Origin: Cupriavidus sp. P-10
Lineage (GTDB): Bacteria > Pseudomonadota > Gammaproteobacteria > Burkholderiales > Burkholderiaceae
Assembly: GCF_003402535.2 (NCBI RefSeq)
Contig: NZ_AP025171.1
Span: 1 to 64,000, forward strand
Length of the DNA: 64,000 nt
Direction: 5' to 3'
The position numbers and the translations under genes are program-made. Below the pieces are notes generated by a model. The model searched no databases and was not told where the DNA came from. It was given only the letters and a program-made list of their open reading frames with translations. Every line of letters begins with the position of its first letter. Positions within the stretch are counted from its first letter, which is position 1. Positions 58,244-63,922 of this stretch are shown here, piece after piece.

Positions 58244-58261
58244 TGTCACACCGATGTGACA
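58244..58261. promoter_or_regulatory. Perfect dyad TGTCACA-CCGA-TGTGACA, candidate operator
   Basis: The 18-base site TGTCACACCGATGTGACA lies 252 bases upstream of the glycine-rich gene. A related half-site occurs upstream of the LuxR-type gene (47890-47905). The spacing (7-4-7) differs from the TGTGA-N6-TCACA site of CRP. The binding protein is unknown; the LuxR-type or Crp/Fnr regulators of this window are candidates. Confidence 0.5.
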
Positions 58262-58512
58262 TGTCGTTTGCCGTGCACAGCGGCCGGGCCCCCATTGATG
58301 GCGCAAGCGGCCAGAAAGTTCCCCGGCTGGCGGCAGGCAGGCCTTGTATTACAAGGGTTTGCCGTCCGACGTGGAGAAGCTGGCACCGATTATGCGCAAG
58401 GGCTGGTCGGTTTGGCAGGTGCCGGACCTGAACCTCCAGCCGTCGTTCCGGACTTGAGCGCCGGCCGGAGGCTGAGCCGCAGTGACACTGTGAATACTCC
58501 TGGGAGCTAGGA

Positions 58513-60180
58513 ATGAAAAAGACCTTACTGGCGTCGGCAATTGCCATGGCATTTGCGAGTTCCGCGTGGGCAAATCCGACCACCAACAACGATGGCGTAA
58601 GAGGCGGTGGCGATAACAATCAGAGCGCTACGGCAACCTCGACGCAAAGCGGGTCCGGAGCGTCGGCGAATGAATATTCGAAGGCTATCCAGGCGAACGA
58701 CAACAGCTCGCGTACGTTCACCGACAGCAGCACGAGCACGAAGACCAACACCGTCACGGTCGGCATCGACAAGTCTGGCTCGAATAACAAGACCAAGAGC
58801 AATTCCGACAACGTAACGAAGGCTTCGGCCTCCGGTCTCGGCAGCGCCGCTGCCGTCGGCGGTGCCGCATCGTCCAGCATTGCCAGCTCCTTCAACAAGA
58901 CCACGGCAATCGCGCTCAGCAAGCTGAACGGCGCCGTGAGCGGCAACAATGTCTATGGCATCGGCAACATTGCCACTAACAGCGGTAACGCCAACGGCGG
59001 CACTGGCTACGGTGGCAAGGGTGGCACGGGCGGCGCCGGTGGCACCGGCCAGGGTGGCTCGGGCGGCAACGGCGCAGTCGGCGCCGCGGGCGGCAGCGCC
59101 AGCGCTTCCAATGGCAGCGCCACGGCTGATTGGGCCAAGGCCGGCTCGGCCAAGGCCGGCGATGGCGGCGACGGCGGACGTGCCTCCAACTGGGGTGCCA
59201 ATGGCGGCGACGGCTATGGCAAGGGTGGCAGCGCGCTTAGCGCGGCGGGCGCCAAGGGCGCCAGCGGCGGCGACGGCTACGGCAAGGGCGGCGGCGCGCT
59301 TGGCGCGGCAGGTGCCGCGGGCGCCAGCGGTGGCGACGGCGTTGGCAAGGGTGGCGGTGCTCTGAGCGCTTCGCTCGGTGCAGGCGGCCGCGGCGGCAGC
59401 GCCGGTGCGATCGGTGGTGATGCCCTGGGTGCCAGCGGCGCCCTTGGCGGTCTGGCCGGTGCGGCAGGTGGCTCGGGTGGTGCGGGTGGCAGCGCCAATG
59501 GCCGCGGTGCCGACGTGGGCGGTGCGGGCGGTGCGGGTGCCGGCGCAGGCGCGACCGGGACCAATACGGCTGGTGCTGGCTCTGGCACGGGCGGCGCCGC
59601 GGGCGCTACCGGTGGCACAGGCGGTGCCGGAACCTCCAGCGCATCGGCGACCGGTGGTGCGGGCAGCGGCTCCGGCGGTGCCGGTGGCACGAACGGTGCG
59701 GGCGCCACGGCAGCTGGCGGCGCGGGCACGGGCAGTGGCGGTGCCGGCGGCACGAACACCGCGGCCTCGTCGTCGACTGGCGGCGCGGGTTCGGGCACTG
59801 GCGGTGCCGGCGGCACGCAGACTGCTTCCGGTGGCGCCGGTGGCGCTGGCGGTGCGGCATCTGCAGGCAGCGCCAGCACTTCAGCCTCGAACGGCAGCGC
59901 TACCACGGGTAGCGGCGGCGCCGGCGGTTCCGGTGGTGCTGGCGGTGCGGGCACCGGCGGTACCGGTGGCGTTGGCGGTGTCGGCAACGGCGGCGCTGGC
60001 GGTGCTGGTGGTGCTGGCGGCTACAACTACGTCGACGCGGGTACGTTCAATATGTCCAACGTCATGACCAGCGTTGGTCAGACCGCGGCGGGCGTCATGA
60101 TGGCGAGCCAGAACAGCGGCGCCGCCTCGCTGACGCAAATGAGCGTGAACGTTCAGGCCAACGTCAACGCGGGCAGGTAA
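58513..60180 (+). CDS. Exported glycine-rich protein, candidate fibre subunit of a Fap-like system
   Basis: The 555-residue protein has a signal peptide (1-20, ending SSAWA), a Ser/Thr/Asn-rich section (about 20-155), and a Gly-Gly-Ala/Ser/Thr repeat section (about 155-510). A distinct C-terminal domain follows (NMSNVMTSVGQ, then ASQNSGAASLTQMSVNVQAN), and its NSG...Q..VNVQAN pattern recalls Fap amyloid subunits. The middle resembles PGRS-type Gly-rich proteins. It leads a five-gene plus-strand cluster with two LDDxRGG proteins, a C39 peptidase and a coiled-coil barrel protein. It is the likely surface fibre or matrix protein. The amyloid nature is inference. The glycine codons are heavily GGC/GGT repeats, prone to recombination. 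Confidence 0.75.
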   Translation: MKKTLLASAIAMAFASSAWANPTTNNDGVRGGGDNNQSATATSTQSGSGASANEYSKAIQANDNSSRTFTDSSTSTKTNTVTVGIDKSGSNNKTKSNSDNVTKASASGLGSAAAVGGAASSSIASSFNKTTAIALSKLNGAVSGNNVYGIGNIATNSGNANGGTGYGGKGGTGGAGGTGQGGSGGNGAVGAAGGSASASNGSATADWAKAGSAKAGDGGDGGRASNWGANGGDGYGKGGSALSAAGAKGASGGDGYGKGGGALGAAGAAGASGGDGVGKGGGALSASLGAGGRGGSAGAIGGDALGASGALGGLAGAAGGSGGAGGSANGRGADVGGAGGAGAGAGATGTNTAGAGSGTGGAAGATGGTGGAGTSSASATGGAGSGSGGAGGTNGAGATAAGGAGTGSGGAGGTNTAASSSTGGAGSGTGGAGGTQTASGGAGGAGGAASAGSASTSASNGSATTGSGGAGGSGGAGGAGTGGTGGVGGVGNGGAGGAGGAGGYNYVDAGTFNMSNVMTSVGQTAAGVMMASQNSGAASLTQMSVNVQANVNAGR

Positions 60181-60366
60181 GACGCGCGCAGCATCGGCCC
60201 GGCCTGAGCCTTGTGCCAGGACGGGCCGCCACTTCGAAGTCTTGCCGGCAGGACTGGCGCCCGCATCCTGTGCGCGGGCGCCAGGTTCCTGTCCATGCCT
60301 ACGCAAGCCTAAATGTCTTCGCTGCCGCCCGGATGGCGCGCGCGCGGGGCTGGGGAGGATGACACC

Positions 60367-60798
60367 ATGCAAACGGTCCGCTTTGCCGTCGGAGCACTCA
60401 CGACGGTCCTGCTGGCCTGGCCAGCACTGCAGGCTCACGCAGAGCCGCCGGGGCTGGAAGCCGCCATGGCTGCCGCAAGCAGTGCTGCGGCAGGCACTCA
60501 GCAGGCGGCGACAGATACAACGCCTCCCGCCGCAGTCAATACTTTGTTTGGCGGGGTGGCGAAAGCTGTACCCGTGTCTAAACTAGACGATATCCGCGGT
60601 GGCGCCGAGGTCACCGTGAACGATATGCGCCTGCACGGCACGGTCGCTGAAAACGCCGCGGTCAATGTCGTATCCGGCGCAAACCGGATCACCGAAGGAG
60701 CTTTCGCGAACGCGGCCGGCATACCTACCGCGATCCAGAACTCCGGCTCCAACGTGCTGATCCAGAACGCAACGATCGTCAACGTCCAGTTCAGATGA
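60367..60798 (+). CDS. Exported LDDIRGG protein of the Fap-like cluster (FapE-like, short)
   Basis: The 143-residue protein has a signal peptide (1-25, ending LQAHA), an Ala-rich segment, then KLDDIRGG (72-79), which looks like a double-glycine protease site, and a C-terminal domain (AEVTVNDMRL ... IQNSGSNVLIQNATIVNVQ). The same LDDxRGG site occurs in the 61507 protein, and the C39 peptidase that could cut it is encoded next. The ATG at 60367 has a GGGGAGG site. Its stop overlaps the peptidase start. It may be a minor subunit or secretion partner. Confidence 0.7.
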   Translation: MQTVRFAVGALTTVLLAWPALQAHAEPPGLEAAMAAASSAAAGTQQAATDTTPPAAVNTLFGGVAKAVPVSKLDDIRGGAEVTVNDMRLHGTVAENAAVNVVSGANRITEGAFANAAGIPTAIQNSGSNVLIQNATIVNVQFR

Positions 60799-61496
60799 TG
60801 AAGCTGCTGCGCAACCTGTTGGCGTCTGTTCCGTTCGCACTGGCGGCGGGGCTCATCCCCTGTGCCAACGCCGCGGATGTCTATCTCTACGGTCCGGTCG
60901 GCGAACCCTACAGCGTCAGGGTCACCAGCGTTCGCGAAGCGCGCTTCAAATCCACGATTCGCCAGCAATACGATTTCAGCTGCGGCTCGGCCGCGGTGGC
61001 CACGCTGCTGACTTACCAGTACGGCCATCCGATGAACGAGGCCACGGTGTTCCAGAACATGTACCTCAACGGCGACCAGGAAAAGATACGTGCCGAAGGG
61101 TTCTCGCTGCTGGACATGAAACGTTTCCTGGGCGCGCTGGGCTATGAGGCGGACGGCTATGAGCTGCCGCTGTCCAAGCTCGAGGAAACACAGATCCCTG
61201 CCATCGTGCTGATCGTGGAAAACGGTTACCACCATTTCGTGGTGGTCAAGGGTGTGAAAGGCAACCGCGTACTCGTCGGCGATCCCGCGCGCGGCACGAG
61301 AGCGCTTTCACGCGAGCACTTCGAGAAGATCTGGCAGAGCCAGTTGTTGTTCGTGATCCACAACCGCACGGACAACGCACGCTTCAACGTGGCTGCGGAC
61401 TGGCGCCTGGCGCCCAGCGGCCCTTACTGGATGGGAGTCAACCGGGATAGCCTGTTCTTCACCGTCATGCCCAAGCATGGCGTTGGCGACTTCTGA
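60795..61496 (+). CDS. C39-family peptidase, FapD-like
   Basis: The 233-residue exported enzyme has a signal sequence (1-27). The papain-like C39 triad is visible: Cys63 in QQYDFSCGSAAVATLL, His147 in NGYHHFVVVKG and Asp163 in VGDPARG. Unlike bacteriocin exporters it has no ABC or membrane domain, as in FapD of the Pseudomonas Fap system. C39 peptidases cut after Gly-Gly. Both neighbours carry LDDxRGG, so they are the likely substrates. It overlaps the upstream gene by four bases and lies 10 bases before the next. Confidence 0.88.
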   Translation: MMKLLRNLLASVPFALAAGLIPCANAADVYLYGPVGEPYSVRVTSVREARFKSTIRQQYDFSCGSAAVATLLTYQYGHPMNEATVFQNMYLNGDQEKIRAEGFSLLDMKRFLGALGYEADGYELPLSKLEETQIPAIVLIVENGYHHFVVVKGVKGNRVLVGDPARGTRALSREHFEKIWQSQLLFVIHNRTDNARFNVAADWRLAPSGPYWMGVNRDSLFFTVMPKHGVGDF

Positions 61497-61506
61497 GGAA
61501 TGCATC

Positions 61507-62406
61507 ATGTTGCAGACTTCCCTCCCGACCCCTGCTGCACCGCGAACCGCCATTTCGGCGGCGGCGATGCTGCTCGGTGCCGGTCTGGCCTGTGCCGGCG
61601 TGGCGCATGCCGGTTCGCTAGCGCAGCCCGACAGCCTTGACCCGTCGGCGCTGCCGTCGCAGGCGGCCACGTCGGCCCGCGACCAGGACAACTCACCCGT
61701 GGCTGCCGCGCGCGGCAGCATGGCCGGCTGGAAGCCGGTCGCACAAGAAAAGCTCGACGACATGCGGGGCGGCTTCGAGATGCCGGGCCTGCAAGTTGCG
61801 TTCGGTATCGAACGCGCGGTGTACATCAACGGGGCCCTGGTCGTCGCAACCAGCATTAACATCCCGGACGTCAGCCGCATCACAGCGGACCAGGCGGCTC
61901 GGCTGGCAACTTCGCTCGGTCCGGCAATCGTCAATGCCACCAACGCGTCGGTCAACGCCGCGCTGGCCAGCAATCCAGTCACCGCAGGCACGCAACTGGG
62001 CTCCAGTGGCGGCAGTGCGAGTGCAGGCAGTGCAGGCAGTGCCGGCGCTTCGGCGTCGGCAGCGGGCGCTGCCGGAGGTAGCTCGTCCTCAGCCTCGGCG
62101 GCCGCGGGTGGCAGCGCCAGTGCCAGCGGGGCTGCCGGCCTGCCCGGCACGGTCGTCAGTACGGGCACTGGCCAGGTGACGACCAACGGGTTGCTCAATG
62201 TCATCCAGAACGGCGCTGGCAACGCGGCCGCGGTGGGATCGCTGGCCGGCACGCCCACCACGGTGATTCAGAACAGCATGGACAACCAGAGCATCCGGAG
62301 CCTGATGACAATCGACGCAAGCGTGAATACGCTGCAGGCTTTCCGGTCGCAATTGGCTAACTCGACGCTGCAGGATGCGTTGATGCGGGCCGCCAGCATG
62401 AGGTAA
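61507..62406 (+). CDS. Exported LDDMRGG protein of the Fap-like cluster (long form)
   Basis: The 299-residue protein has a signal peptide (about 1-35, ending GVAHA) and the site EKLDDMRGG (81-89). Then comes a conserved-looking domain (FEMPGLQVAFGIERAVYINGALV), a low-complexity Ser/Ala/Gly stretch (about 165-215) and a C-terminal section with IQNGAGN and VIQNSMDNQSI repeats similar to the 60367 protein. It starts at ATG 61507 with TGAGGA. It is likely a C39 substrate and a fibre component or adaptor. Confidence 0.7.
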   Translation: MLQTSLPTPAAPRTAISAAAMLLGAGLACAGVAHAGSLAQPDSLDPSALPSQAATSARDQDNSPVAAARGSMAGWKPVAQEKLDDMRGGFEMPGLQVAFGIERAVYINGALVVATSINIPDVSRITADQAARLATSLGPAIVNATNASVNAALASNPVTAGTQLGSSGGSASAGSAGSAGASASAAGAAGGSSSSASAAAGGSASASGAAGLPGTVVSTGTGQVTTNGLLNVIQNGAGNAAAVGSLAGTPTTVIQNSMDNQSIRSLMTIDASVNTLQAFRSQLANSTLQDALMRAASMR

Positions 62407-62482
62407 TCGTAGCGCAGCAGAGGGCAGTACAGGTTGCGGGCTCCTGACCAACAGCCCGCCCGTCCCGGGGGAGGAAGACGTG

Positions 62483-63922
62483 ATGAAGAAGCGGTCGATG
62501 CAGGGCATCCGGAATGCCGGATGCTCGACGTTGCTGTTGCTCGGCGGCCTGGCACAGGCCCAGACGCCGACCGATGCGGGCGTCCCCGCAGCGGGCCTGG
62601 AAACGTTGCAAAGGGAACTCGCCGATCAGGCCACCCAGCTCGACGCCATGAAGCGGGCACTGGCCGAACAAGAGGCAGTCATCCGCGAGCTGCGCAGCGT
62701 CATCAGCAACGAAGTGCTGGCCACCAAGCGCGGCGGCCAGGGTGTCGGCGGCGGTGTGTCGCCGTCCAACAACGCCACCAATGCCGCCACCGCTGCAGCG
62801 GCGGCCAGCGCGGCGCAGAGCGCGCCCAATGCGGTCAACAACCCGCAGCAGATCACGCTGCAGCCGCCGCAGGATGTCGCGCAGGGCCCGCAGGCGGGCG
62901 AGTCCGCCAACCCGCAGACCGTGGCCGTGGAAGAGCCCGTGGGCCGTCCGCCCGAGCGCGAGACCCGGCCGCCCGAGATCGCGCCGATCATCGACCAGCC
63001 CGGCGTGCTGACCGCGCAGGGCAAGCTGGTGGTCGAGCCTGGCTTCCAGTACGGCTACTCGTCAAACAACCGCGTGGCGCTGGTCGGCTACACGGTCATC
63101 CCCGCCATCCTGATCGGCCTGCTCGACGTGCGCGAGGTCAAGACCTCGACCTACATCCCGTCGATCGCGCTGCGCTATGGCGTGACCAAGCGGTTTGAAA
63201 TCGAAGCCAAGGTGCCTTACGTGAAGACTTCCGGCTCGACCATCAGCCGCGAGGTCTTTACCGGCACCGCCGTCGACAACGTGTTCAATGCCAGCGGCGC
63301 CGGCCTGGGCGACGTCGAAGCGACGGTGCGCTACCAGCTCAACTACGGCAACGAGAAGATGCCGTACTTCGTCGGCTGGCTGCGCTACAAGTCGGCCACC
63401 GGCAAGGATCCGTTCGAAGTGGTGACCGATTGCGTGACGCGCTGCGTGGGCAATACCACCGGCACCGGCCTGCCGCTCGGGCTGCCGACCGGCACCGGCT
63501 TCCAGGCGCTCCAGCCGGGTATCACCTGGCTGCTGCCAACCGATCCGGCGGTGTTCTTCGGCACCTTCAGCTACCTGCACAACTTTGCGCGCAACAACGT
63601 CAGCCGCACCGTACTCAACGGCCAGACCGAAAACCTTGGCAAGATCGCCCCGGGCGATATCTTCGAGTTCAGCTTCGGCATGGGCCTGTCGCTCAACGAG
63701 AAGGCGTCGTTCAGTATCGGCTATGACCAGGCCATCATCTGGCCGACCAAGCAGAACGGACAGACCGTGCCGGGCTCGGTGCGCATCACGCAGGGCACGC
63801 TGCTGGTGGGCTACTCGTATCGCTTCAATGACCGCTACACGCTGAACCTGTCGGTGGGTGCGGGCCTGACGCGCGACACTCCCGACCTGCAGGTCAACCT
63901 GCGCCTGCCGATCACTTTCTGA
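62483..63922 (+). CDS. Outer-membrane barrel protein with N-terminal coiled coil (FapF-like)
   Basis: The 479-residue protein has a signal peptide (about 1-28) and a heptad-type coiled coil at about 38-75 (LETLQRELADQATQLDAMKR). A Pro/Gln/Ala linker follows, then a barrel domain from about 170 with alternating aromatic strands (FQYGYSSNNRVALVGY ... LVGYSYRFNDRYTLNLSVGAG) ending in a terminal Phe (LRLPITF), the usual barrel signal. FapF, the amyloid export pore, has exactly this order (coiled coil, then barrel). The ATG at 62483 with GGGGGAGGA is preferred over a GTG at 62480. A secretion role is inferred. Confidence 0.8.
   Translation: MKKRSMQGIRNAGCSTLLLLGGLAQAQTPTDAGVPAAGLETLQRELADQATQLDAMKRALAEQEAVIRELRSVISNEVLATKRGGQGVGGGVSPSNNATNAATAAAAASAAQSAPNAVNNPQQITLQPPQDVAQGPQAGESANPQTVAVEEPVGRPPERETRPPEIAPIIDQPGVLTAQGKLVVEPGFQYGYSSNNRVALVGYTVIPAILIGLLDVREVKTSTYIPSIALRYGVTKRFEIEAKVPYVKTSGSTISREVFTGTAVDNVFNASGAGLGDVEATVRYQLNYGNEKMPYFVGWLRYKSATGKDPFEVVTDCVTRCVGNTTGTGLPLGLPTGTGFQALQPGITWLLPTDPAVFFGTFSYLHNFARNNVSRTVLNGQTENLGKIAPGDIFEFSFGMGLSLNEKASFSIGYDQAIIWPTKQNGQTVPGSVRITQGTLLVGYSYRFNDRYTLNLSVGAGLTRDTPDLQVNLRLPITF

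Follow-up and report, generated by a model that had tools for sequence, protein, structure and literature searches.

A probable Fap-related fibre-export locus with a glycine-rich subunit in Cupriavidus sp. P-10

The stretch of DNA analysed here, hereafter the window, comprises the first 64,000 nucleotides of contig NZ_AP025171.1 of Cupriavidus sp. P-10 (assembly GCF_003402535.2), the start of a 2.93-Mb contig in a genome of 9.08 Mb. Near its end lie five plus-strand genes, with overlaps or short gaps between them, which an initial annotation had compared with the fapABCDEF (Fap) cluster of Pseudomonas, and all five open reading frames (ORFs) are present as it described them. The first (58513..60180, 555 amino acids, ORF confirmed) encodes a Gly-rich main subunit, followed by gg1 (60313..60798, 161 amino acids), an exported double-glycine protein ending in one Fap-like repeat; a stand-alone FapD-like C39 peptidase (60795..61496, 233 amino acids); gg2 (61477..62406, 309 amino acids), a FapE-like exported double-glycine protein; and a FapF-like outer-membrane pore (62480/62483..63922, 480/479 amino acids) with a signal peptide, followed by a coiled coil, a linker, a plug region and a barrel. 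Translation of gg1 may start at codon 19 (60367), because the alignment with several of its remoter homologues sets in only at residues 15-19.

The reading frames were controlled by comparing synonymous with amino-acid codon changes in each gene against two related species. Synonymous changes prevailed in nine of the ten comparisons (subunit, 145 vs 107 and 115 vs 108; gg1, 24 vs 28 and 46 vs 34; C39 peptidase, 33 vs 14 and 50 vs 21; gg2, 59 vs 47 and 80 vs 70; pore, 57 vs 17 and 91 vs 44). The subunit, gg1 and gg2 have no Pfam family at E 1, and in NCBIfam only gg1 gives any lines, two at chance level, the presence of FapA, FapB, FapC and FapE models in these databases not having been checked.

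The peptidase matches Pfam Peptidase_C39 (E 5.6e-25) and is nearest to the FapD model NF058616 (3.4e-42), then to FilB (3.7e-39). Its Cys63, His147 and Asp163, annotated as the catalytic triad, are invariant in 15 aligned C39 homologues, as is Gln57, and the 233-residue protein matches only peptidase families in Pfam, with no ABC (ATP-binding cassette) exporter fused to it as in C39-containing type I secretion of bacteriocins, in agreement with the stand-alone enzyme originally described. The pore is homologous to nearly the whole crystal chain in the PDB (2.7e-27) of FapF, a trimeric pore of 12 strands with a coiled coil, and matches the NCBIfam FapF model NF058560 (2.9e-40). Its AlphaFold model, a check that the initial annotation had proposed, contains a helix of coiled-coil-like sequence (residues 38-79) and a barrel, with a mean pLDDT (predicted local distance difference test) of 69.4 and high confidence for the majority of the strands; in Foldseek, FapF chains take the first 18 places among the matches of this model, ahead of the COG4313 channel. 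Both the FapF-like architecture and the resemblance of peptidase and pore to the Fap layout are supported, FapD and FapF being nearest by profile and FapF by fold. A second FapF-like pore, 68% identical, occurs in genome G006 (L045:2998-4836) beside an alcohol-dehydrogenase-like ORF, the other components not being found in the fetched stretch.

The two exported proteins carry the double-glycine sites ascribed to them, LDDIRGG in gg1 (60583..60603, plus strand, residues 91-97) and LDDMRGG in gg2 (61753..61773, plus strand, residues 93-99), with a predicted cut after the second Gly in each. Across 146 loci, gg2 has RGG in 144, another GG in one and no GG in one, and in gg1, RGG accounts for 113 loci and GG of any kind for 121, no site being found in four; these counts come from a motif search, without shuffle control, that favoured RGG where several places matched. 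The RGG of gg2 aligns with RG[KR][YF] of canonical FapE, which has G-K/R instead of GG in 18 of 20 loci (L049 and L137 not resolved). Fourteen of these 18 come from a search that required G-K/R-Y/F, and in four further loci (L062, L069, L136 and L138) G-K/R was seen with that residue left open.

A weak lead to a possible third C39 site is LATKRGG in the pore linker (62717..62737, plus strand). The pattern L...[RK]GG is present in the pores of 22 of the 23 Cupriavidus loci (L032-L044 and L052-L061; missing in L059) and in 41 of 134 distinct pores overall, for a shuffle expectation of 3.6; outside Cupriavidus it appears, among the matches listed, in L093, L124 and L164, and it is mainly a feature of this genus. 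As regards Pseudomonas, the accessible text of PMC5557850 states that the catalytic Cys of FapD is needed for FapC secretion and, in 2017, that the target of FapD was unclear, FapE being suspected, while in 2025 FapD was 'thought to process' FapE and FapF (PMC12822426, in the portion available). A FapA-like ORF upstream of FapB in canonical locus L136 has a double-glycine-like place, DFARVSGGV, and a comparable small ORF in L051 and in L064 contains L-x-x-[IV]-x-G-R; FapA may be a further FapD substrate. Deletion of fapA is described as frequent in the available part of PMC3792158.

The gg2 protein appears to be distantly related to FapE. The two families align in hhalign over 39 columns around the site (probability 87.5, E 3.6e-6), and a hidden Markov model (HMM) of gg2 built without canonical rows matches the ORFs at the FapE position of L062 (6.5e-7) and L137 (3.8e-4); at E 0.1 it recovers no further canonical FapE.

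The main subunit begins with a signal peptide and an Asn/Ser/Thr-rich N-terminus (the N-terminal part of 58513..60180), continues through a conserved mid-module delimited by eye (about 58891-58968) and a PGRS-like body (58993-60036, residues 161-508), and ends in a C-terminal repeat (60037-60177, 47 residues), all on the plus strand. The body is 44% Gly and contains 53 Gly-Gly dipeptides with a period of 3, the spacing between Gly-Gly pairs being 3 in 23 of 50 intervals; the 'hundreds' of Gly-Gly-Ala/Ser units first reported were an overcount. A Gly-Gly-Ala/X composition characterises mycobacterial PGRS proteins. The likeness found is in composition only; the window subunit has a Sec signal peptide and a terminal repeat, and the PE domain of PE_PGRS is absent from it (0 Pfam families at E 1).

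It had also been stated that the main subunit does not look like FapB or FapC, which have about three imperfect Gln/Asn-rich repeats, and a profile of canonical repeats indeed finds no match in it, the strict FapB/FapC repeat pattern occurring 0 times in all five window proteins. The Fap-like C-terminal motif claimed for the subunit is missed by the same profile and is linked to the Fap repeats only through intermediates. In hhalign the subunit tail aligns with the gg1 tail (probability 98.2, E 4.8e-14), the repeat being common to both, and the gg2 tail also aligns with that of gg1 (97.2, 3.2e-11). As a family profile, gg1 aligns in register with a FapB repeat (73.8, 2.9e-5), and a gg1 HMM matches the FapB of locus L062 at 1.3e-4; a relation of gg1 to FapC was tried and was not significant. 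The other intermediate is a plasmid protein of Indioceanicola profundi (L115:673-5511), of 1612 amino acids with 18 QQNNG-type repeats, which adjoins a 39%-identical FapF-like pore, no C39 being found in the sequence fetched around it. This protein aligns with the subunit tail (93.9, 1.5e-7), with gg1 (95.0, 3.7e-8) and with canonical Fap repeats (64.6, 6.2e-5), and it is matched by HMMs trained without it for the subunit tail (9.2e-13) and gg1 (6.4e-9). Because of the gg1-FapB and Indioceanicola links, the subunit tail is taken as a putative Fap-like repeat, through a purely transitive connection.

Component models trained on the loci of the genus, then iterated, were applied to 188 loci, some genomes being entered repeatedly. 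All five components occur in 140 of them, 30 have the C39 peptidase and the pore only, and 18 show other patterns. In 80 of the 140 complete loci the order is subunit, gg1, C39, gg2 and FapF on one strand; in others the FapF gene is on the opposite strand, 37 times downstream and 19 times upstream, and four are arranged otherwise. Within the genus, the pore is matched in 34 of 36 genomes, that of strain P-10 included, being absent from G012 (54% complete) and G024, and all five components are found in 23 of 23 neighbourhoods (L032-L044 and L052-L061), with the subunit of L058 cut by the contig end. Before iteration, the models gave no gg1, gg2 or subunit match in those of the 20 canonical Fap loci that were searched (L048-L051 and L062-L072). 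The five-gene set is thus conserved in the synteny search that the initial annotation had called for; the pore is FapF-like and not from an unrelated porin family, and the peptidase is FapD/FilB-like and not from a non-secretion family.

A survey with the FapD model matched 56 of 399 genomes of the order at E 1e-10 and 39 of 398 genomes of the phylum at E 1e-15, and neighbourhoods were fetched for many, not all, of the genomes matched. When named genomes were scanned (the best 80 of at least 587 relatives), five-component loci were found in Beta- and Gammaproteobacteria, the nearest ones being those of Cupriavidus. The system or a close version of it is present in Lysobacteraceae, in Rhodanobacteraceae, on a Vibrio plasmid and on two alphaproteobacterial (Sphingomonadales) plasmids, which keep the same gene order with an Asn/Ser-rich repeat protein in place of the Gly-rich subunit.

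A quick C39 tree of 101 rows was built, with 68 rows of the new type thinned from 134 distinct ones and with some long branches that meet. All 68 fall on one side of a branch with a support of 99 in the Shimodaira-Hasegawa-like approximate likelihood ratio test, and 20 canonical FapD rows on one side of another (98). Subunit labels could be placed on 60 of the 68 rows, Gly-rich meaning at least 18% Gly: 45 Gly-rich rows lie within one clade of 50 (support 94), whose sole Asn-labelled row, L182, is borderline at 17% Gly, and elsewhere the subunits are mostly Asn/Ser-rich. Two changes, undirected, suffice to place the Gly and Asn labels on the tree. The machine thus has a wider range than the Gly-rich body; judged by these labels, several low-complexity bodies go with it, the Gly-rich one among them. 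The suggestion of a distinct system holds, in that the C39 peptidase has a group of its own and FapB/FapC-type repeats are missing; the system is not confined to the Betaproteobacteria.

Other kinds of loci were met in these searches. Three Cupriavidus genomes (G021, G001 and G023; loci L048, L049 and L050) hold, alongside the Gly-rich system, a canonical cluster with FapB/FapC repeats, and the RGKY site of FapE can be read in the canonical clusters of L048 and L050. A third kind of locus has a C39 gene near a more distant FapF-like barrel (L084, L092, L095, L099, L101, L103, L106, L107 and L131-L134), with no gg1, gg2 or subunit matches, and does not form one group in the C39 tree. Two tandem C39 genes of identical score, about 2.9 kb apart, in L121 (genome G565) suggest a duplicated cluster. 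In L116 (Vibrio sp.) the system resides on a plasmid of 136 kb, close to an annotated integrase, and the C-terminal repeat match falls on an ORF separate from the Asn/Ser/Asp-rich one. In L060:3586-4674 (genome G015), the C-terminal half of the subunit lies in an ORF whose first part is unlike the family, as if by a frame shift in that assembly.

Upstream of the subunit gene, three candidate regulatory elements can be distinguished. The first is the exact palindrome TGTCACA-N4-TGTGACA (58244..58261, no strand assigned), a putative activator site that the 9.08-Mb genome contains in exact form just once. Its two one-mismatch copies, which to judge from the ORFs lie in a ribosomal-protein cluster and between receptor-like and peptidase-like genes, gave no lead. 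The palindrome is present in 11 of 11 aligned Cupriavidus upstream regions (12 of the 23 genus loci were submitted, and L037 was dropped as its start was not found) and, with up to two mismatches, in 31 of 33 distinct ones. The second, also a putative activator site, is the inverted repeat CCTTGTATTACAAGG (58342..58356, no strand assigned), a pattern taken from the window itself (shuffle mean 0.02) and partly conserved in the same alignment. The third is a sigma54-type -24/-12 element, TGGCACCGATTATGC (58381..58395, plus strand), with one mismatch to the sigma54 consensus TGGCAC-N5-TTGC. The RpoN site printed in the accessible part of PMC5552954 agrees with it.

The wider comparison covered 114 distinct upstream regions, taken from loci that have enough upstream sequence and whose subunit ORF is no shorter than 250 amino acids. 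With up to one mismatch, the sigma54 element occurs in 70 of them, in 69 at -40 to -140 (reverse-strand control, 2/114), and in 29 of the 33 from Cupriavidus; a TGTCACA- or TGTTTCA-type palindrome with up to two mismatches occurs in 71 (reversed-sequence controls, 0 and 1). Outside Cupriavidus the two elements are found in 41 and 40 of 81 regions, respectively. The palindrome was also considered as the site of Burkholderia BerA (Bcam1349); no such site is given in the available portions of PMC5552954 and PMC3584217, and this identity is not claimed.

When the flanks fetched for 142 loci were searched by motif, 34 loci, of which two are repeats, proved to have an enhancer-binding-protein gene. 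All nine of these proteins that were scanned exceed the Pfam VpsR cut-off, and four flanking activators run against NCBIfam gave general sigma54-activator models, all listed ones being under cut-off. VpsR is a c-di-GMP (cyclic di-GMP) effector that promotes biofilm. The same is stated of BerB in the accessible part of PMC5552954, and BrfA, a c-di-GMP-sensing enhancer-binding protein, is described in the text available of PMC13101488 as activating Pseudomonas fap and promoting biofilm. The window locus resembles these systems in its sigma54-type promoter and in the VpsR-domain activators beside some of its relatives; it differs in that its sites are putative and in that no such activator was found in the sequence examined beside it. 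The promoter and the neighbouring activators suggest regulation as part of a biofilm matrix, and a matrix role is likely because VpsR, BerB and BrfA are all c-di-GMP effectors that promote biofilm.

Taking all this together, the window locus probably encodes a fibre exporter related to Fap, with a subunit rich in Gly. The evidence is computational throughout and consists of the homologies, the conserved set of genes and their order, the sites, and the signals of a promoter; that cutting takes place, how the events follow one another, that a fibre is formed and that c-di-GMP exerts control are the parts that we infer from it. It is proposed that all five proteins would pass into or across the inner membrane by Sec, and that the FapD-like C39 peptidase would cut gg2 and gg1 in the periplasm after their double-glycine sites, freeing their C-terminal parts. 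The processed proteins would then license or nucleate the export of the Gly-rich subunit, which would leave unfolded through the FapF-like pore. Docking and assembly would fall to its conserved C-terminal repeat, and the extracellular matrix fibre or coat would consist of its Gly-rich body. Expression would probably be sigma54-dependent and turned on by a VpsR-type, c-di-GMP-linked activator.

Several results weigh against this proposal. The peptidase reaches 144 bits on the FapD model, whose cut-off is 330, and the pore 138 bits on the FapF model, whose cut-off is 700. At E 1e-3 the gg2 HMM recovers FapE from only two of the 20 canonical loci, and the best stretch of a FapE profile on the window gg2 alone is not significant (E 0.19). 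A profile of 102 canonical Fap repeats leaves the subunit unmatched and reaches gg1 at only 0.058, with a FapC control at 2.1e-30; compared directly with Fap repeats in hhalign, the subunit tail is not significant (probability 2-4). AlphaFold gave no fold for the subunit (18 sequences, mean pLDDT 33.9) and was uninformative. In 25 of 146 gg1 proteins the motif search could pick no GG at the site, and 44 of 114 upstream regions have no good sigma54 element. Finally, no VpsR-type gene was found in the sequence examined beside the window operon, and of the best two VpsR-domain homologues of the genome, one belongs to another contig and one is situated towards the far end of the contig that holds the window.

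Compared with Fap, the locus shares a periplasmic C39 peptidase, a FapE-like protein, a coiled-coil and barrel pore, the adjacency of their genes and a low-complexity subunit with a signal peptide. It differs in having two double-glycine proteins, a C39 peptidase of a separate group and, instead of the FapB/FapC-type repeat set, a Gly-rich subunit with one terminal repeat. By its sequences, the locus is a variant of the Fap kind and Fap-like in its presumed working; it is not classed as a Fap member because the FapB/FapC repeats, one of the defining features, are absent.

One alternative is a normal Fap system in which FapC would have diverged strongly and acquired Gly-rich linkers, its fibres being cross-beta amyloid of the classical Fap type. 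The relatives of FapD, FapE and FapF and the connection of the terminal repeat to Fap repeats via intermediates speak for it; however, canonical FapB/FapC clusters are separate and their 20 C39 rows group apart, three Cupriavidus genomes hold such a cluster besides the Gly-rich one, gg1 and gg2 have GG where FapE has G-K/R, and the subunit escapes the Fap-repeat profile, so that we consider this explanation somewhat unlikely. A second alternative concerns the fibre itself. Polyglycine-II bundles have been proposed for PGRS and other Gly-rich proteins, and here the body could form such bundles in a non-amyloid fibre or coat anchored by the terminal repeat. The Gly period of 3, with 23 of the 50 Gly-Gly intervals equal to 3, and the maintenance of a Gly-rich body across a clade of 50 C39 rows agree with it, but the AlphaFold result (pLDDT 34, no fold) and the Asn/Ser/Asp-rich bodies of related clusters do not, and we hold it to be rather doubtful. 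Equally tentative is a broader formulation, according to which the locus would belong to a separate family that exports matrix fibres: a conserved machine, made up of the C39 peptidase, the FapF-type pore and two licensing proteins with double-glycine sites, would carry interchangeable low-complexity bodies on one Fap-like terminal repeat, the Burkholderiales/Xanthomonadales body would be a PGRS-like, polyglycine-type non-cross-beta fibre, and double-glycine cutting would be the export switch.

It is very improbable that gg1 and gg2 are secreted peptides, bacteriocin- or signal-like, with the Gly-rich gene as an unrelated neighbour: although double-glycine motifs do accompany a C39 peptidase, this enzyme stands alone without an ABC transporter domain, the precursors start with signal-peptide-like sequence, the parts released would have the same repeat as the subunit, and the subunit gene belongs to the conserved gene order. 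Least credible is a version of the putative Fil pilus system of Acinetobacter, which shares a C39 peptidase and a related barrel (FilB, 3.7e-39; FilC, 1.1e-9) but scores under both cut-offs (134.7 of 475 bits and 38.2 of 630 bits), has other partner genes, with annotated FilA, FilE and FilF for which no match was listed among the window proteins, and has its C39 (a half-filled row) outside the new group; a literature search on the Fil names together gave no match.

In 2013, many extra matches of FapD and FapF models were ascribed to larger families (PMC3792158, in its available part), and in 2018 co-located fapD and fapF homologues were reported from five further phyla, no subunit being mentioned in the accessible text (PMC6173800). 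A Gly-rich version of Fap was not found in a literature search that covered few subscription journals. The same 2018 text calls the FapD substrate 'yet to be determined', a question that the double-glycine sites therefore make directly testable: the motifs of the two partners, situated where canonical FapE has G-K/R, are likely targets of a FapD-type peptidase and yield an exact, testable prediction of cutting for both the Gly-rich and the canonical Fap systems. The findings suggest, moreover, that a Gly-rich matrix protein, one missed by searches based on FapB/FapC repeats, is served by a FapF-type pore in genera associated with plants and soil.

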